Positions 664 through 38,198 of a DNA stretch of 40,031 nt are shown one piece after another. The stretch is from positions 1-40,031 of the IMG/VR virus record IMGVR_UViG_3300037493_002347; one strand, written 5' to 3'. The first letter of the stretch is position 1, and each line of letters opens with the position of its first letter. This DNA comes from a virus. The position numbers were made by a program, and so were the translations under genes. Below the pieces are notes generated by a model. It made no database searches and had not been told where the DNA came from. It was given only the letters and a program-made list of their open reading frames with translations.

Positions 664-2753
664 CACCAATTGAACTCGCCCAAAAGGGCTGGCACCTCAT
701 CCCGTGGTCAAAGCGCGCTTCCTCAAGCCGCCAGCCGATGGTGAAGGGCTATCTCGGAACACTGCCAACACCGGAAGAAGTCGCTGAGTGGCATCGCAAG
801 TGGCCGTCATGTGACTGGGCGATCAAGCCTACGTTCCACGTCGTACTCGATATCGAGATGAAGAACGGCTTGGATGGCGAAGCGGAACTGATTGAAAAGT
901 TCCAGCCCTTAGAGGGTTTCCCTAGCACCAAGACTTTTAACGGCGGTCGCCACGTATGGATGCGCGTACCTCACGATTGCACCCTCAAGGGCGGCGTGTG
1001 GATCGGTGACGCCCTGGAAGTAAAATTCAAAGCGAGCGTTCACATACCTCCATCGGAAGGGTACGAGTGGATAACTCCGCTACAATCTCTGACCGATGTT
1101 CCGATGGCGCCGGATTGGTTTATGGAAGCATGGGCCAAGGCTGCGCCCGTCAGCATCAAGGCCACGGAAACGGCATCGTTTCCCGAAGGTCAGCGGCACG
1201 CGCTGCTGTGCTCGGCTGCGGGTGCGTTGCGTAACCTTGGGCTTGGTGAAGAGGGCATCTTCCTTGGGTTGCAGGGTGTGCGTGCTGACCGCTGCGAAAA
1301 CCCTGAGACGGTCTCCGATGACGAGCTACGCGGCATTGCGAAGTCGTACGCGGAAAAGGAAGCCAGCGAATCGTTTGATATGCGACTCGCACGAGGCGAA
1401 GAGCGGGCCGTTCAGGTGGCAAACTTTATATCTCGGAACACGGGGCCGGTACCTGTTGCGAAGGAGATAAACCCACTAGCGGTTCCGAAACTGTCAGCGG
1501 AACATCTTCGCCCTACGCCGTTGATTGCGGCTTGGGTGGACTGGTGCTTGTCCTGCGCTCCACGCCCACAACCAGAGCTTTCCTTGCTGGCGGCGTGCGT
1601 TGGCATGGGTGCACTGATTGGGCGCGATCTGACGTGGCGTCGATCACATGCGAACATCTACGGGCTTGGGCTGGCATCGTCGGGTTCGGGTAAGGACGTG
1701 CCGTTGCATTCGATTCGTAAGGTATTTGCTGCTGTCGGTTGTGTGGATCTGCTTGGATCGATGCATTTCGACTCTGATGCGGGTATGTTTGACGAGATCA
1801 ACCAAAGCCCAAGCATCACCTGGGCCGTAGACGAGATCGGACTGTTCCTGCAACAGATCAAGCTACCTACCTGCCCTGGCTACATGAAAAAGGTATGCAC
1901 CAACCTGACGGAGTGGTACTCGTGCCAACCGATTAAGGGGAAGGCGCTTAAGGGGCAAACGGCTACGGAAATACATTCGCCATTTCCATCGGTGTTGACG
2001 TTCTGCCAGCCTAAGATCTTCTCCCGCGTGTACGATGACGCGTTGTCGGAGCAAGGCATGATTAACCGCTTTGTTCCCTTTATGGGGGAGCATCTACCCG
2101 AGATGCGTTTCGATTTTGAGGATACGCCGCCACCGGAAGATATGGTTGCGGCGCTTACCAAAATGAACACGGAGATCAAACGCTCTCCCGTGGAGAACGC
2201 GGGGGCGACACGTAAAACGCAAGAGATCACATGCGATCCTGACGTGCTGGCGCACTACTACACGAAGGCCCGTGAAGTGGAAGCGACTGTGCAGTCCACA
2301 AAGCTTACCGATGAAAAGCGTTCGACCCTGATGAGCCGTTGCGTTGAAACTTCAAAGCGGTTTAGCCTGATTCACGCCTACACAATGAACGTCGATCAGC
2401 CGCACATGACCAAGGAAAGCATTGATTGGGGCTTTGCTATCGCGGCCTATACCACCGATGTTTTACTGCACATTACCAATAATGCGGCAACTACTCCTCA
2501 TGCGCTTAACATTGACCGCATCTACGCGGCGGTAAGGACATCGGGCGAAAAGGGCATGTCGCCTAGCGTGTTGATTCAGCGCACTATGCGCGACGTGGAA
2601 GCGCAAAAACGGGAAGCCGTTCTATCTGATCTTGTAAAAGCTGATAGGATACGCATCTACGAGATAAAAGCAAAAACGGGACAGAAAACTAAACGCTACT
2701 TTGCCGATCATTTTTTCGCAGCATGCGAAAGGAATATAAATGAACACTACTAA
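660..2753 (+). CDS. Primase-polymerase / DUF3987 helicase-like replication protein
   Basis: 697 aa. Residues about 1-155 look like a bifunctional primase-polymerase (PrimPol) domain: VVLDIE at 61-66 (metal-binding acidic pair), NGGRHVW at 94-100 and a PPSEGYEW motif at 130-137. Residues about 290-600 match the DUF3987 helicase-like domain, with a P-loop variant SGSGKD near 340-345 and a Walker B-like VDEIG. A small basic winged-helix-like tail ends the protein. It probably makes primers and unwinds the fork for the downstream polymerase. I chose GTG at 660 because it overlaps the helicase stop as GTGA, like other junctions here. The ATG at 558 would run 103 nt back into the helicase gene and add unrelated residues. 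Confidence 0.85.
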   Translation: MTPIELAQKGWHLIPWSKRASSSRQPMVKGYLGTLPTPEEVAEWHRKWPSCDWAIKPTFHVVLDIEMKNGLDGEAELIEKFQPLEGFPSTKTFNGGRHVWMRVPHDCTLKGGVWIGDALEVKFKASVHIPPSEGYEWITPLQSLTDVPMAPDWFMEAWAKAAPVSIKATETASFPEGQRHALLCSAAGALRNLGLGEEGIFLGLQGVRADRCENPETVSDDELRGIAKSYAEKEASESFDMRLARGEERAVQVANFISRNTGPVPVAKEINPLAVPKLSAEHLRPTPLIAAWVDWCLSCAPRPQPELSLLAACVGMGALIGRDLTWRRSHANIYGLGLASSGSGKDVPLHSIRKVFAAVGCVDLLGSMHFDSDAGMFDEINQSPSITWAVDEIGLFLQQIKLPTCPGYMKKVCTNLTEWYSCQPIKGKALKGQTATEIHSPFPSVLTFCQPKIFSRVYDDALSEQGMINRFVPFMGEHLPEMRFDFEDTPPPEDMVAALTKMNTEIKRSPVENAGATRKTQEITCDPDVLAHYYTKAREVEATVQSTKLTDEKRSTLMSRCVETSKRFSLIHAYTMNVDQPHMTKESIDWGFAIAAYTTDVLLHITNNAATTPHALNIDRIYAAVRTSGEKGMSPSVLIQRTMRDVEAQKREAVLSDLVKADRIRIYEIKAKTGQKTKRYFADHFFAACERNINEHY

Positions 2754-3039
2754 AACTAACAAGACGCGACTAGCGAATATGGCAGAAGAGGCTGATCGGG
2801 GTAATCGGGGGCTGTATCGGGAGGTTAATTTGTGGCGGTGTGAGCCGGGGGACACTCTACTTTTGGAAAATGGCCGTGAAATAAAGTATAGGGGGTTTAC
2901 TTTTACCTTTGATGCACCGCATCACGTCGGTGGATTAGGTGAAGTTTTGTTTTTTAGATCAAATGGGCATCTCGGGAGTAAAAAAGGGAACAACCTTAGG
3001 ATCGTCGCCATCCTCACCGGTCGCGGGAGGACGCGATGA
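2740..3039 (+). CDS. Hypothetical protein
   Basis: 99 aa, basic, not recognised. The ATG overlaps the primase gene by 14 nt and is preceded by AAAGGA, a reasonable ribosome-binding site. The stop overlaps the next start as ATGA, so the gene sits inside the replication operon. The DNA is G-rich near its 5' end and AT-richer afterwards than the flanking genes, which may mark a small accessory gene. The middle (residues about 40-75, GREIKYRGFTFTFDAPHH) looks like a small beta fold with no diagnostic motif. Confidence 0.65.
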   Translation: MNTTKTNKTRLANMAEEADRGNRGLYREVNLWRCEPGDTLLLENGREIKYRGFTFTFDAPHHVGGLGEVLFFRSNGHLGSKKGNNLRIVAILTGRGRTR

Positions 3040-3248
3040 GCCTGACCTTTAACACACTAAACCGAGTTAAGTATCCTTTTGTGACCATCTACAAGGGAGA
3101 GTACATGATCGGTAAAGTCGAATGCAGCCTTGCGTCGCCCTACGTTGCCACCTTCCTGAGTCCAGCAGGATTGACATCTGAAGATGTGCGTGCGGTAGCC
3201 GATGTGATTGATAGGATGAACGAACAAGCCTCTGAAAGACAAGGGTAA
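3036..3248 (+). CDS. Hypothetical protein
   Basis: 70 aa, not recognised. It starts ATGA over the stop of the previous gene and ends 5 nt before the next start. The C-terminal half (TSEDVRAVADVIDRMNEQ) is predicted helical. An internal ATG at 3105 is preceded by AAGGGAGAG, a better Shine-Dalgarno than the one at 3036, so a 47-aa product is an alternative. Its place suggests a minor role in replication. Confidence 0.55.
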   Translation: MSLTFNTLNRVKYPFVTIYKGEYMIGKVECSLASPYVATFLSPAGLTSEDVRAVADVIDRMNEQASERQG

Positions 3249-3253
3249 AAGAC

Positions 3254-3703
3254 ATGAACACTGAACAATCCATTATCTGGTTTACCGCTATGGTAGACCG
3301 CACTCACGAAGCCCCGCCTGAGATTGTGGCTAAGCTACTGCCACACGTCAGCACATTGAAGAAGTTTGCCGAAGCGATTGCCGAACGCGCTAACGAGCTG
3401 GCACGTTCTGACGAATTGCCGGGCTATACCAAGGGCGAAGGTCGAGCCAAGGCATTAGCTTGGGTAGACGATGCGGATCTGCCCGCTTTCCTATATGAGA
3501 GCAAGCCGATGTCGCCAGCTCAGGCGATTAAGAACAAGCTCGTGTCTGAGGAAACGATCACCAAGCAGGGATGGGCCGTGCGAAGTGCGAGCGAAGTGGT
3601 TGCTGTGAGGCTAGAAGAGGTGAAGACGGTTGCGGAACCGCGTAAGGTTGCGCCACCACGTAAGGTTGTGGAGCCTGTTATTCCTGATGAATGTCCATTC
3701 TGA
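3254..3703 (+). CDS. DUF2800 C-terminus-like protein with SSB-like tip
   Basis: 149 aa. Residues about 54-110 (LPGYTKGEGR, then an acidic stretch, then FLYESKPMSPAQAIK) resemble the end of DUF2800 proteins. Those are phage RecB-type nucleases often coded beside family A polymerases. The nuclease core is absent: there is only a helical N-terminal segment of about 50 residues. The protein ends in a Pro/Lys/Val-rich linker and DECPF, which resembles the acidic Pro-Phe tip by which SSB proteins recruit partners. It may bind ssDNA or dock replication proteins; that is inference. The start ATG follows AAAGAC, with no strong ribosome-binding site. Confidence 0.6.
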   Translation: MNTEQSIIWFTAMVDRTHEAPPEIVAKLLPHVSTLKKFAEAIAERANELARSDELPGYTKGEGRAKALAWVDDADLPAFLYESKPMSPAQAIKNKLVSEETITKQGWAVRSASEVVAVRLEEVKTVAEPRKVAPPRKVVEPVIPDECPF

Positions 3704-33236: not shown

Positions 33237-33827
33237 TTACCGCGAGCCAGCAGTGCTCAGGACCACAGCGGCAACGCCAGCGGTGCTAAAGTCACGTGGG
33301 GTGATGAGCGTCTGCGTGTTAGCCGTCAGCGCAGCGCCAGGGAGCTGGGAGATGGTAGCCGTATCAGGGATCAGAATCTCAACGGTCTGCCCAGCGACGG
33401 GAGCGGTACCAAAGGTAACGGTCGTGCCGTTGATCTTCCACTGCGTACCAGTTGGGGTAGCATCCGAACCCATGCGCTGACGAACGACAGCGTTAAGCGC
33501 GTACTGAGGAGCGAAGGTTAGGGCAATCGCTTCGAGGTAGTTGATCACGGTCAACGACGCAGCAGCGGTAGTCGGATAGGTAACGCCGGTAGCGGCGGTA
33601 GGCAGGGTGAACGCAACGGTGCTGCCGTCGCCAACGAAGCGGAACACACGCGCGGCATTCTGCGTACCCGGGTGCCAAACGCCGTACAAAGCGGCGGCAC
33701 CGGTTGAGTTAGCGGCGGTCGGCTGACCGGCGACGATACCGTTGATACGGCGCGACCAGACAGGAGCCGCTGCGGAGAACAGTGGAACCGTGGTTACGAG
33801 ATTAGGGACAGGAGCAGTAAGGGCCAT
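33237..33827 (-). CDS. Virion surface protein
   Basis: 196 aa, Ala/Thr/Val-rich with two beta units: FRFVGDGSTVAFTLPTAATG, and WKINGTTVTFGTAPVAGQTV then EILIP near 125-150, a form common in phage fibre N-domains. It is first in the subcluster of three appendage genes after the terminase. A 90-nt gap upstream may hold a terminator or promoter. Confidence 0.6.
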   Translation of the reverse strand: MALTAPVPNLVTTVPLFSAAAPVWSRRINGIVAGQPTAANSTGAAALYGVWHPGTQNAARVFRFVGDGSTVAFTLPTAATGVTYPTTAAASLTVINYLEAIALTFAPQYALNAVVRQRMGSDATPTGTQWKINGTTVTFGTAPVAGQTVEILIPDTATISQLPGAALTANTQTLITPRDFSTAGVAAVVLSTAGSR

Positions 33828-33839
33828 GGTGTAAACCTA

Positions 33840-33905
33840 GGGTTAGGGGGTAACGTGACTATAAGGCAGAAAAAAATCCGCTACTACAGCTTAGTGGGTG
33901 TCTAC
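33840..33905 (-). terminator. Possible weak terminator downstream of terminase
   Basis: In the 91-nt gap after the terminase stop the leftward strand reads CCACTA...TAGCGG (6 bp with one mismatch), followed by a run of seven T. The stem is short, so termination would be partial at best. A TATAGT about 15 nt further could be a promoter -10, but no good -35 is seen. Confidence 0.35.
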
Positions 33906-33918
33906 GTTACCGTATCAC

Positions 33919-36288
33919 TCACCATTTATTACTCCGTAATCCGGGGATGGTGGCAGATCCGCCCTTTTTCTTTTTAAAGATATCGGCCCCATAGACCGCG
34001 CCTGGATCTACGCGCCACTTTGGGGGTGGTGGTACTGGTGGTAGGGGGCGTCCGATGGATTCAATAAGTAAACATCCGTTTACGCAGTTATGAACCAGCA
34101 GCGGGCCGTTGTTCGTCAACACAAAAAACTCGTGCTGCTCGTTCACGTTCAAGTCGTAAACGGGCACGTTTTTCACGTCCGCATTTTGCGGATTGCCTGT
34201 TTCGTTCTTTACGGCTACAGGCGGAGCATCGCGTAGCGGTAATCCACATGACCACGGATACTCCACAATCGACGCAATTGCGCACGGCTTTGCAGTTTTT
34301 TTCAGCGTGAGCGCGGTGCCACTCCCGCCCTTTTTCAGATGCGTGCCATGCTTTTGTAAGTCCGCGAATATCGGCAAGGTGTTCCAGGTGTTTGGGAGTA
34401 CTACAGCGTTTGCTAATTGCGGTGGCGTGCTCGCGGAAATGCTGGGCTGCGGAGATGCAGCAGAGATTAGCAAGCTCGTTGTTGCGGGTATTTTCGTCAA
34501 GGTGGTGAATGTGGTGTCCTGGCGGAATAGGTCCGTGCGCGTGCTCCCATATGTCTCGGTGTAGCAGTCGCGGGGTTTCGCTCCAACCGGAGGAGCTGAA
34601 ATATCTTCGGTGGCTAAGCTGCTTTGCGTTGGGGTATCGACGATACTCGCGACCGTTGAAAAAGACGGCTTCGACTTTTGTAGCATTTCGCATCCCACAA
34701 CGGTATCGCCGTTAGCTAGTGCGTCAATAGGCACCCACCCCTTGTTGACGGTGTAGCAAAGGTGCTCCGGTGTAGCGCGAACCCCCGCGTATTCCTTAGT
34801 GTTTCTGTAGCCTTTACACCACGCCTTAGTGACATCGCGCAACCCTATACTAGTCATTACCCGATCACCCTTCATGATGTGGTCGATGCGGGTCCATCCG
34901 TGCTCAGTTAAAACAAGCGTTTCTCCAGAAAAACACGCATCCAAAAAATCGTCTCCGCCACGGTCAACCTTTGGATCGAACGCTAGCAACTCGGGTATGA
35001 TTTCGTTACGCATGCGTGGCGTGTCGGGGAAATGGAGCTTCCCGTTGAACATCAGCGCCTTCATGCCGAGAGACGCCACGGCTTTGGAAGATCGACGTAC
35101 GTTCTTGGAGACGGTCACGTACCAATGCTGCTCCTCTTGCACACGGGAGAAGATCGGTCCCATGGTGTTCTGAATGGGTCCTGATTCGCCCGCAAGGTCG
35201 CGTGCTTCGTACTGCTTGGCAAGTGCAATAGTGCGAACTACCGCGTCCCAAGGATCGACGTTGTCGTAGAAGAAGTCCTCCCCTATGTAAACGTTGCCTT
35301 CGTAATCAACACCCATTGGTACAATGGCGCTCTTGTCTGACTTCTTAGAAGCCGACGTTGCGTAGTCGACGCCAATCAGCCATGTCAGCTCTGCGGGCTT
35401 GTCTTTGTAGTACCGTACCGTGTCTTGCGAGAAGAAATTACCACCCTCTACGTAGGGTTTTCCGCAATAGAGCGAGGCCCAATCGCGTGGTTGAATGGAT
35501 GCCTTTAAACGCAGGTAGGCATCACGGTCGTATCGTTCGGGGTGTAGGGCTTCACCTTTTTTGCGAAAATCTTCGTCTTGTTCAGCGAGGGCAGGGAAGT
35601 TAATTATCTTCCATTGGTCTGCATCTGGATCGCGGTTGGCTTGGTCAATGAGTCGTCCCGCTAGGTCATCAGTCGCCCAGCGCGTCATCACAATAATAAT
35701 GCCTCCACCGGGTAACATACGCGTACGCGCCGTTGACGAATACCACTCCCACAGCTTTTCCGATTCAACGGGAGAGTCCGCCGCTTCACGATCTTTAACA
35801 GGATCGTCAATAATCATAACGTCTGCACCGCGTCCGGTGAGCGAACCGCCAGCGCCAACGGCGTAGTAGCTGCCGCCTTTACTCAAGCGAACGTAGCTAA
35901 CGGACTGCGCTTGCGTATCGAGTTCAACGTTAAACAAATCCAGGTACTGCGGGTTCTGTAGAATGTCGCGCACCTTACGCCCAAAGCTATTAGCGAGATC
36001 CTGGTTGTAGGTAGCGGCTACGATTTCCGCCTTTGGATTCTTGCCAAGGATATACGTCGGCAAGTACTCGGACACGGCGGTTGACTTACCTACGCGAGGC
36101 GCAACGGATAGGATAATGCGTGGCGATCCTTTACGGTTGACCGCCTCCACAAAAGCATCCATGATTTCAGATAGCTGCTTATGAAACCAACCGACTTTGT
36201 AATCGGGCTTCATATAGCAGATGTACGGCAAGAGTTCGCGTCGCGCCAGCTCCCGCCGTGCAAGTTCGGACTTAATGTGTTTACTCAT
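33919..36288 (-). CDS. Terminase large subunit with in-frame intein
   Basis: 789 aa as coded; 506 aa after loss of a 283-aa intein. ATPase domain: Walker A APRVGKST (63-70), Walker B VMIIDDP (157-163) and the TRWATDDLAGRL motif (202-213). Nuclease domain: LIGVDYATS with Asp308, and the last acidic motif GGDDFLDA (444-451). The intein starts at Cys452 directly after this motif, and the C-extein resumes at Cys735 (CVNGCLLIES). Terminase cuts and pumps DNA into the portal, so active packaging needs splicing to restore the nuclease core. The ATG overlaps the upstream 34-aa gene as ATGA. Confidence 0.93.
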   Translation of the reverse strand: MSKHIKSELARRELARRELLPYICYMKPDYKVGWFHKQLSEIMDAFVEAVNRKGSPRIILSVAPRVGKSTAVSEYLPTYILGKNPKAEIVAATYNQDLANSFGRKVRDILQNPQYLDLFNVELDTQAQSVSYVRLSKGGSYYAVGAGGSLTGRGADVMIIDDPVKDREAADSPVESEKLWEWYSSTARTRMLPGGGIIIVMTRWATDDLAGRLIDQANRDPDADQWKIINFPALAEQDEDFRKKGEALHPERYDRDAYLRLKASIQPRDWASLYCGKPYVEGGNFFSQDTVRYYKDKPAELTWLIGVDYATSASKKSDKSAIVPMGVDYEGNVYIGEDFFYDNVDPWDAVVRTIALAKQYEARDLAGESGPIQNTMGPIFSRVQEEQHWYVTVSKNVRRSSKAVASLGMKALMFNGKLHFPDTPRMRNEIIPELLAFDPKVDRGGDDFLDACFSGETLVLTEHGWTRIDHIMKGDRVMTSIGLRDVTKAWCKGYRNTKEYAGVRATPEHLCYTVNKGWVPIDALANGDTVVGCEMLQKSKPSFSTVASIVDTPTQSSLATEDISAPPVGAKPRDCYTETYGSTRTDLFRQDTTFTTLTKIPATTSLLISAASPQPSISASTPPQLANAVVLPNTWNTLPIFADLQKHGTHLKKGGSGTALTLKKTAKPCAIASIVEYPWSCGLPLRDAPPVAVKNETGNPQNADVKNVPVYDLNVNEQHEFFVLTNNGPLLVHNCVNGCLLIESIGRPLPPVPPPPKWRVDPGAVYGADIFKKKKGGSATIPGLRSNKW
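34087..34935 (-). mobile_element. Intein in terminase large subunit
   Basis: 283 codons in the terminase frame. Block A is CFSGETLVLTEHGW (Cys1) with a following KGDRVMT. Block B is TPEH (Thr506, His509 of the precursor), then GWVPIDALANGDTV. Block F is VPVYDLNVNEQHEFFV. Block G is GPLLVHN followed by Cys+1. All residues needed for standard class 1 splicing are present. The middle (about precursor residues 541-705) has no in-frame endonuclease; it is Thr/Ser/Pro/Leu-rich and is the shadow of the HNH gene read in another frame. Confidence 0.93.
34088..34693 (-). CDS. HNH homing-type endonuclease nested out of frame in intein
   Basis: 201 aa, entirely inside the intein, with codons beginning 1 nt 5' of the intein codons. 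Residues 44-91 form a clear HNH core of the phage type: LHRDIWEHAHGPIPPGHHIH, HLDENTRNNELANL, then SAAQHFREH. Residues 140-159 hold a CxxC...CxxC finger (CVDC, CSAC), followed by a basic tail. ATG 34693 is the first start after an in-frame stop at 34712-34714; only a weak site precedes it. The stop TAA (34090-34088) falls in the His-Asn codons that end the intein. The likely role is to cut intein-free terminase alleles so the element spreads. Confidence 0.9.
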   Translation of the reverse strand: MRNATKVEAVFFNGREYRRYPNAKQLSHRRYFSSSGWSETPRLLHRDIWEHAHGPIPPGHHIHHLDENTRNNELANLCCISAAQHFREHATAISKRCSTPKHLEHLADIRGLTKAWHASEKGREWHRAHAEKNCKAVRNCVDCGVSVVMWITATRCSACSRKERNRQSAKCGREKRARLRLERERAARVFCVDEQRPAAGS

Positions 36289-36389
36289 TTAAACAACTTA
36301 AGCGCACACATGGCGCAAACGGGAGTGTTGAATACGTGCATGATCGAAAGTGATCCGCAGTAATAGCATGTCTTTATTTTAAGTTCCAC
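36285..36389 (-). CDS. 34-aa zinc-ribbon protein
   Basis: A tiny gene: GTG start with GGAAG 4-5 nt upstream, and a stop overlapping the terminase ATG (ATGA). It encodes CYYC and CAMC 14 residues apart, a minimal zinc ribbon, with a Lys-rich end. It overlaps the previous gene by 16 nt. The spacing of the cysteines and the junctions make a real gene likely; the role is unknown, perhaps tied to packaging or terminase expression. Confidence 0.6.
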   Translation of the reverse strand: MELKIKTCYYCGSLSIMHVFNTPVCAMCALKLFK

Positions 36390-36553
36390 GGTGCTTCCAA
36401 TAGGTGTGCTGGTTTGCGTTCACGAAGCCAACGAAAACACCGTGACGTGTGTTCCGACACAGGGAACTTCACATACACGGCGGGATAGGAGCACTGCACC
36501 TTAAAGGCGTAAGGGTTCTTATCCCGCCATTGGCATTCTTCGGTAAAACTCAC
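36374..36553 (-). CDS. Small hypothetical protein
   Basis: 59 aa from a GTG that overlaps the upstream stop (GTGA), with AAGGAA just before it. The sequence is Trp/Cys/Pro-containing and compact (CQWRDKNPYAFKVQCSYPAV, then TSRCFRWLRERKPAHLL), unlike random translation. It resembles small phage proteins with a conserved W-x-R core, but I cannot name a family. It is coupled to the zinc-ribbon gene by a 16-nt overlap. Confidence 0.6.
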   Translation of the reverse strand: MSFTEECQWRDKNPYAFKVQCSYPAVYVKFPVSEHTSRCFRWLRERKPAHLLEAPWNLK

Positions 36554-37576: not shown

Positions 37577-37592
37577 GTAGCGTATTCGTTTA
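37577..37592 (-). promoter_or_regulatory. TACGCTAC motif before 39-aa gene
   Basis: Reads TAAACGAATACGCTAC on the leftward strand, with 15 of 16 bases identical to the copy at 38204-38219. It also ends 5 nt before an ATG. It overlaps the stop codon of the RNA ligase gene. Confidence 0.5.
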
Positions 37593-38198
37593 TTTTTTAT
37601 TAGCAAGCCAAGATTTGTGTAACTTGTCATTTTCGCACAAACGCTTGAACTTGGCACTGTGCATGTTTTTGAAAGTGATGACAGCGCCTTCCGGTTTCAT
37701 AAAACCTGCGTAAAGAACCGACCCTTTATTTTTCAGGTTATTAACGCAGTAGTCCCACACTGAAATTGGTTGATCGTAAGCATCGGTCCATGTCCCATCA
37801 ATTGGGCCTTCGTACAGTACCGGCACAACGCATAGGCCGGGAATCTCAATATCCGTACGTCCGTACTCAAATGATGCGAATCGCCTATCCGTTAGGTCGT
37901 ACTTGCGTTGAATGCCCGCGCCGTGGAATTCTCCGTAATGAAGTCCGGGTCCGAGCCTTCGGAGCTCTTCACGACGTTCATGCACCCAAACTCCAAACCC
38001 AAAATTATCTTCGGCTTTAGTAGGCGGTTCTCCGTTTTCGTGCGTCAGCCAACGCTCACGCGACCCCGCCAATACCGGCATACCCGTATCTTCAGGAACG
38101 TAAATGACTCCATTGGTCCCGTCAATTTTCTCGGTCACGTAAACGGTTTCTGAAGATAGCCGCTGAATAGACGGCCATTTTTTAAAGTCAGTAGTCAT
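37590..38198 (-). CDS. ATP-dependent RNA ligase (Rnl2-like)
   Basis: 202 aa. Covalent nucleotidyltransferase motifs are present in order: EKIDGTNG at 23-30 with Lys24 as the AMP-accepting lysine, HYGEFHG at 87-93, EGAVITFK at 170-177 and AKFK at 182-185. It lacks an N-terminal extension and a C-terminal OB domain, as in small phage Rnl2-type ligases. These enzymes seal 3'-OH/5'-phosphate RNA ends, often repairing RNA cut by host defence. No partner kinase is visible here. The start is preceded by the TACGCTAC motif 5 nt upstream instead of a clear Shine-Dalgarno. Confidence 0.9.
   Translation of the reverse strand: MTTDFKKWPSIQRLSSETVYVTEKIDGTNGVIYVPEDTGMPVLAGSRERWLTHENGEPPTKAEDNFGFGVWVHERREELRRLGPGLHYGEFHGAGIQRKYDLTDRRFASFEYGRTDIEIPGLCVVPVLYEGPIDGTWTDAYDQPISVWDYCVNNLKNKGSVLYAGFMKPEGAVITFKNMHSAKFKRLCENDKLHKSWLANKK

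Follow-up and report, generated by a model that had tools for sequence, protein, structure and literature searches.

The window analysed here, the whole 40,031 nucleotides (nt) of the IMG/VR virus record IMGVR_UViG_3300037493_002347 (positions 1 to 40,031), carries a gene for the terminase large subunit (TerL) interrupted by an intein, and inside the intein, in another frame, lies a complete HNH endonuclease gene. Very probably, the two overprinted genes form one mobile composite, in which TerL is restored by the intein and an HNH homing endonuclease is translated separately. The anatomy of the element, its conservation across a family, the frame-specific selection, the predicted folds, the polymorphic presence and the precise transfer were all established computationally. 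As well over 100 further viral loci share the layout, it represents a genuine type of selfish element, mobile and apparently not described before.

The TerL open reading frame (ORF) occupies positions 33919-36288 on the minus strand, as do all features of this locus given below. It encodes 789 amino acids (aa) and matches phrog_38 (terminase large subunit, 6.1e-85) and Pfam Terminase_6N (1.3e-12). The N-extein (34936-36288, 451 aa) ends with FLDA at a motif of the nuclease domain, and the C-extein (33919-34086) begins with Cys+1 (CVNGCLLIES). Between them lies the intein of 283 aa and 849 bp (34087-34935, TerL residues 452-734), CFSGETL...LLVHN/C, where the slash, here and below, marks the intein boundary. 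It extends from Cys1 to Asn283, and all Class 1 intein residues, namely Cys1, TPEH, His-Asn, and Cys+1, are present. The Hint N half (intein residues 1-88, 34672-34935) has the TPEH block B at residues 55-58 and scores 81 bits with our own Hint-N hidden Markov model (HMM). The Hint C half (residues 251-283, 34087-34185), ending with LLVHN, scores 29 bits with our own Hint-C HMM and is matched by TIGR01443 (intein C-terminus), which exceeds its own cutoff in the full TerL ORF. The matches of the window intein alone to Pfam Intein_splicing (5.8e-7) and Hint_2 (1.9e-5) are both under the gathering threshold; these domains are matched by 54/60 and 53/60 family members, respectively.

The nested HNH gene (34088-34693) starts with ATG and encodes 201 aa in the -1 frame relative to TerL. 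The product matches Pfam HNH_3 (8.8e-15), as do 60/60 family members, and phrog_15471 (9.4e-18 over residues 29-175). The HNH_3 catalytic domain covers residues 43-85 (34439-34567); H63, H64, N72, and H85 are invariant in the family alignment, together with the zinc-finger cysteines. The TAA stop codon (34088-34090) is embedded in the last codons of the intein, CAT-AAC (His-Asn), and so falls in its last 4 nt, while the stops of relatives are ~31-79 nt earlier. Both frames are stop-free across the whole overlap in the window, and if the HNH's own synonymous codons are shuffled, the intein frame stays open in ~1% of permutations. An earlier note on this DNA, made from the sequence alone, had placed the intein with its splicing blocks in the terminase frame and the 201-aa HNH gene with its own ATG in another frame, both open for the length of the overlap, and its coordinates and reading are correct on all these points. 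It had also described a zinc-finger protein, which holds for one Cys4 zinc-finger-like motif (CxxC..CxxC from C140, residues 140-163, 34205-34276); the second finger, found in most relatives, has been lost in the window.

The two frames evolve differently. We pooled the differences in eight close pairs of elements, one pair being identical, by codon position of the intein frame. The counts at positions 1/2/3 were 51/48/142 in Hint-N, 120/290/126 in the overlap, and 3/5/23 in Hint-C. Since the second position of an intein codon coincides with the wobble position in the HNH gene, the coding signal changes frame at the HNH start and changes back at the HNH end. In the overlap, the crude omega, calculated with no correction for multiple hits, was 0.34 when the codons were read in the HNH frame and 1.73 in the intein frame; purifying selection, a check suggested in the earlier note for both frames, is thus indicated in the frame of the nuclease. 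The window itself could be compared with distant relatives only, and here the identity is 40-48% in the HNH frame and 17-27% in the intein frame over the HNH gene (the shadow frame), approximately as in the third, unused frame.

The shadow frame is nevertheless open. In 95 nested genes there were 0 intein-frame stops against 218.7 expected from synonymous permutation, whereas in nine un-nested HNH relatives the equivalent frame contained 58 stops against 61.2 expected. Similarly, 0 stops were found in 144 nested loci, compared to 4-35 in fractured loci. The nested class is partly defined by openness, making the first comparison partly circular, and we therefore put the weight on the un-nested controls and on the gap in stop counts. 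The intein frame over the HNH gene is therefore kept open, with amino-acid change otherwise tolerated.

Structure prediction is consistent with this picture. For AlphaFold, the phage-collection rows were left out of the input alignments. In the model of the in-frame intein, the predicted local distance difference test score (pLDDT) was ~96 for residues 1-80 and 86-97 for residues 251-283, but 42-69 for residues 81-250, which had almost no secondary structure. The in-frame linker between the Hint halves (residues 89-250, 34186-34671) is thus predicted to be disordered, and its evolution shadows that of the HNH codons, in line with the filler loop proposed earlier. The best match of the intein model in PDB was the gp41-1 intein (3.9e-5, probability 1.00), indicating a Hint fold, and the profile of the intein family (60+ members) compared with solved inteins also yielded gp41-1 (9.3e-19). 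The model of the HNH product had a mean pLDDT of 89.6; the nearest solved structure is that of I-HmuI, with weak similarity (profile E 0.0046; fold E 0.05, probability 0.87).

In order to find related elements, we scanned IMG/VR and GTDB contigs with profiles for HNH similarity, with at most the 80 best loci kept from each scan, and sorted the resulting 215 loci by our own Hint-N and Hint-C HMMs. The HNH gene was nested between intact intein halves, in one phase throughout, in 144/215 loci, although an HNH-first search favours nested relatives and this fraction is not the share among all TerL inteins. Among the 215 HNH loci, none had nesting in another phase, and none had HNH in frame with the intein, that is, a canonical intein-endonuclease fusion. 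The Hint halves were in different ORFs in 27 loci, 32 loci (two of them at contig ends) had no Hint, and the remainder were incomplete. Moreover, when annotated phages were searched by tblastn with the HNH protein, matches lay under the TerL genes of Acinetobacter phage Highwayman, Tetrasphaera phage TJE1, and Rhodobacteraceae phage LS06; in each, as in the window, HNH is in the -1 phase within the intein. One locus is on a plasmid record of the archaeon Halobacterium sp. GSL-19, adjoining a phage portal gene.

Sites and residues were counted in the first subset of 109 elements, forming 85 clusters at 90% identity. The elements are inserted at three neighbouring positions within the nuclease motif of TerL: /CxDA (32 clusters), /CDA (36), and DA/C (11), with six clusters at other sites. 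Cys1 is present in 84/85 clusters and TxxH in 98%, and the +1 residue is Cys or Ser in all. Searches with the exteins showed that the host proteins are terminases belonging to several Pfam families. Using our own HNH HMM, we found no nested HNH in the Hint relatives outside TerL, namely B22, phiD12, Nyseid, 587AP2, Thermus phiLo, and Brocalys. What had been treated as a single curiosity is hence a large family.

Two loci have additional peculiarities. In L008, one terminase ORF (from 239) contains two inteins, one at the P-loop (GGRSSSK/CLALGT...VTHN/SWDAAG) and the other at the nuclease motif with a nested HNH. In L094, from a metagenome-assembled genome of Candidatus Methanimicrococcus, TAG codons at 2984-2986 and 2991-2993, seven bases apart, break one frame each; reading TAG as pyrrolysine would open both the HNH and intein frames.

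Across the family, HNH genes mostly have an ATG or GTG of their own, often shortly downstream of a same-frame stop. Anti-Shine-Dalgarno pairing at the HNH starts has a mean of -4.7 (n=81), compared to -2.46 at other ATGs of the same genes (n=3104; p = 1.7e-10). The claim that the nuclease has its own translation is thus supported for the family; for the window it is weakened, as its own site is poor (see below).

Several observations indicate that the element moves. The intein-free terminases L140, L141, and L142 are 99% identical to the window TerL in amino acids and ~92% in DNA, and have FIDG/IVNG at the site where the window has FLDA/intein/CVNG. The intein is thus cleanly inserted at a conserved site of its host gene, as is characteristic of Class 1 inteins. 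The flank residues at window positions 34084-34089 differ from those in L140-L142, possibly due to co-conversion that supplied Cys+1. The elements of L009 and L011 differ at 3/960 nt, with the first mismatches 7 nt to the left and 6 nt to the right of the element, while the flanks have ~81% identity just upstream and ~38% downstream, soon becoming unalignable. In L041 and L044, the elements and ~100 nt of the left flank are identical, and beyond it the flanks have diverged. L088 and L089 have no differences through the element, and ~85% identity over 900 nt upstream. This contrast between element and flank identity is what one would expect if the composite had recently been transferred as a whole and with precision. 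The evidence that HNH moves with the element into empty alleles, as a homing endonuclease should, is indirect, coming from the empty alleles and from near-identical elements in diverged terminases. Together with the sharp transfer boundaries, the empty alleles support the earlier proposal of a composite mobile element made of two overlapping genes.

From these data we infer splicing, internal translation, cleavage, and homing as steps of the following mechanism. The Hint halves (residues 1-88 and 251-283) would fold together and excise the 283-aa segment in cis, restoring TerL at FLDA/CVNG. The shadow peptide of the HNH gene would be a disordered loop and leave with the intein. The HNH/zinc-finger endonuclease would be made from its own start by internal initiation, and would most likely cut terminase alleles that lack the intein, at this motif or close to it; such cutting would drive copying of the whole element, that is, homing.

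Some results weigh against a composite that is intact in the window and has long been inherited as a unit, in addition to the search bias mentioned above. The region upstream of the HNH ATG (34694-34713) has a weak Shine-Dalgarno-like GTGGG with a duplex energy of -2.1, which is not above internal-ATG controls, and hence there is no convincing Shine-Dalgarno sequence. The pairwise similarities of Hint and HNH correlate weakly (Spearman 0.20), and HNH correlates better with TerL (0.41); long-term co-transmission of the two parts is thus not demonstrated. Furthermore, given the weak Shine-Dalgarno pairing, the lost zinc finger, and the drifted stop, the window copy could be decaying. It is possible, though we think unlikely, that the family is real while this particular copy is inactive, with the nuclease dead or poorly made. 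Several points argue against decay: the catalytic residues H63, H64, N72, and H85 have been kept along with one complete zinc finger, no lesion interrupts the ORF, the identity to relatives is far higher in the HNH frame than in the shadow frame, and the HNH model is a confident one. An assembly or sequencing frameshift that moved an ordinary in-frame endonuclease out of frame, listed in the earlier note among the findings that would count against it, can be practically dismissed, as the only point in its favour is that such a layout is rare a priori. It would need two compensating errors, the HNH gene has its own start and stop, which recur in many unrelated contigs, and the shadow frame evolves like non-coding sequence. 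In addition, an independent contig (entered as L007 and L139) encodes proteins identical to those of the window and matches its DNA at 100% over 3,300 nt, and more than 140 loci are alike. The lack of a profile match and the lack of conservation, also on that list, do not apply either, given the strong matches of the HNH frame and its recurrence in the same phase in 144 loci.

The remaining alternatives assign a different role to the insertion or to its nuclease. HNH proteins reportedly take part in phage packaging (work ascribed to Kala, 2014), and free-standing relatives of the nested HNH occur beside terminase genes (BP10, PAE1, and L070); accordingly, it might be a packaging cofactor working with the terminase, merely sheltered by the intein. 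We regard this as improbable, since terminases 92% identical in DNA have neither the element nor HNH at the site, HNH and intein are transferred as one precise block, and most HNH relatives are within inteins, always at the terminase nuclease motif. Even less probable is that ribosomes pass from the terminase frame into that of HNH by programmed -1 frameshifting, yielding a TerL/Hint-N/HNH fusion. This would agree with the single relative phase, -1, of all nested cases. However, the phase is more simply explained by the number of stops expected per gene, ~2.3 in the used offset and ~17.7 in the other one; it may reflect common descent or this constraint. Most HNH genes, as described above, have their own start codons, often with in-frame stops upstream, and significant Shine-Dalgarno pairing; frameshifting is unnecessary to account for HNH production. 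Finally, since group I introns of phages often harbour HNH enzymes, the insertion could in principle be a self-splicing intron with an intronic HNH. This is hardly credible, as the terminase frame is open throughout, with the Hint fold and catalytic residues, and an Rfam search of 33800-36400 gave no match up to E = 1, so that no group I intron fold was seen. The composite of a splicing intein and a separately translated homing endonuclease thus remains our preferred explanation.

Related layouts provide clues to the origin of the element. Besides the free-standing HNH genes mentioned above, a mini-intein of ~133 aa with no endonuclease is found at the same kind of site in a terminase of vir335, a virus of Methanomassiliicoccales (L146, BK063680, 2501-2899). 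In ~22 loci, HNH lies between Hint halves that belong to separate ORFs, and in L163, L174, L177, and L188 the C half has a strong start signal (ribosome-binding site). Candidate natural split (fractured) terminase inteins are L155-L166, L168, L170, L174, L177, L178, L184, L185, L188, L209, L221, L100, and L101. When 154 HNH sequences were placed in a tree, the three layouts formed clusters but still required at least 20 changes, and 3-4 changes per label are forced by well-supported branches. The free-standing HNH genes, the mini-intein lacking HNH, and the split inteins together suggest gene capture. The simplest account of these sequences would be that a mini-intein captured a whole free-standing HNH gene, followed by switches between the overprinted and split forms in both directions. 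We somewhat favour a still broader interpretation, that overprinted inteins with endonucleases are a widespread undescribed class, which arose by capture of an HNH gene by a terminase mini-intein, occurs in tailed viruses of bacteria and archaea at the three neighbouring sites in the TerL nuclease motif, and has repeatedly interconverted with split-intein forms.

The Acinetobacter phages BP10 (L005) and Highwayman (L002) are related, with 88% identity over the portal region, and have unrelated terminases. The HNH of BP10 is free-standing upstream of the small terminase gene, that of Highwayman is nested, and the two are ~50% identical.

In such an element the two jobs of a mobile intein would be divided at translation, with splicing shielding the host protein and the nuclease made from its own start. 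Inteins, HNH genes alone, mini-inteins, and nested and split forms all occur around the same gene; they constitute a natural comparison set, and hence allow for a direct test of how splicing elements gain homing endonucleases and how split inteins arise. The family is also a large and clean case of overprinting: in one frame selection acts on the protein, and in the other it acts only to keep stops out. On the practical side, many TerL annotations conceal an unannotated nuclease gene.

Elsewhere in the window, the ORF at 37590-38198 (minus strand) contains the motif EKIDGTNG, which is similar to the nucleotidyltransferase motif I of RNA/DNA ligases.

Canonical large inteins, such as those of the PI-SceI type and of mycobacteriophage TerL, share with the window element the Hint domain and an endonuclease between the Hint halves, and the mycobacteriophage inteins also share the terminase as the host gene. 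The mycobacteriophage TerL inteins splice, and two of them cut the intein-free allele (Kelley 2016, PMC5050341). All published ones are in the ATPase domain (PMC5050341), whereas the window family is in the nuclease domain. Unlike in canonical inteins, the endonuclease in the window is out of frame, has its own start and stop, and is of the HNH_3 type. Natural split inteins in fractured genes, reportedly described by Dassa in 2009 as having their halves separated by a free-standing endonuclease gene, are similar in that Hint halves flank a separately translated endonuclease, and gp41-1 is the nearest solved intein. The exact fractured layout with the same HNH family occurs in L157, L163, L177, and L188. 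In the window, by contrast, the Hint halves are not in separate ORFs, as a single TerL ORF covers both and is read through the HNH gene. The nearest solved HNH homing endonuclease, I-HmuI from an intron of phage SPO1 (PDB 1u3e), is intron-encoded, and its likeness to the window HNH is weak outside the catalytic domain.

We found no published description of an intein with an overprinted endonuclease in a search that did not include the Gosselin 2025 preprint, which deals with non-canonical architecture of inteins, and the novelty is therefore provisional; no literature was found on the intein of phage TJE1. Pacc40 was considered as a case of the same architecture and rejected, as its hidden HNH is outside its Hint intein. 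In its methylase gene (gp60, L143), the Hint intein at 2501-3496 is separate from the hidden HNH ORF at 472-948.

The closest published case is the ShiLan domain, an insertion in a mycobacteriophage DNA methylase (Arsenault, Gosselin and Gogarten 2025, PMC11855218). There, too, an out-of-frame HNH with zinc fingers lies in a host ORF that stays open; HNH starts from position 18 of the insertion (in the coordinates of that paper), in the same phase as in the window, and the insertion ends with TAAC, also as in the window. The distribution of the ShiLan domain is disjunct, which its authors took as evidence of homing (PMC11855218). However, neither Hint motifs nor splicing were found there, and the insertion is thought to be retained in the methylase (PMC11855218). 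In the window, the host gene encodes a terminase and HNH is enclosed by an intact intein, so that restoration of the host protein would be expected.

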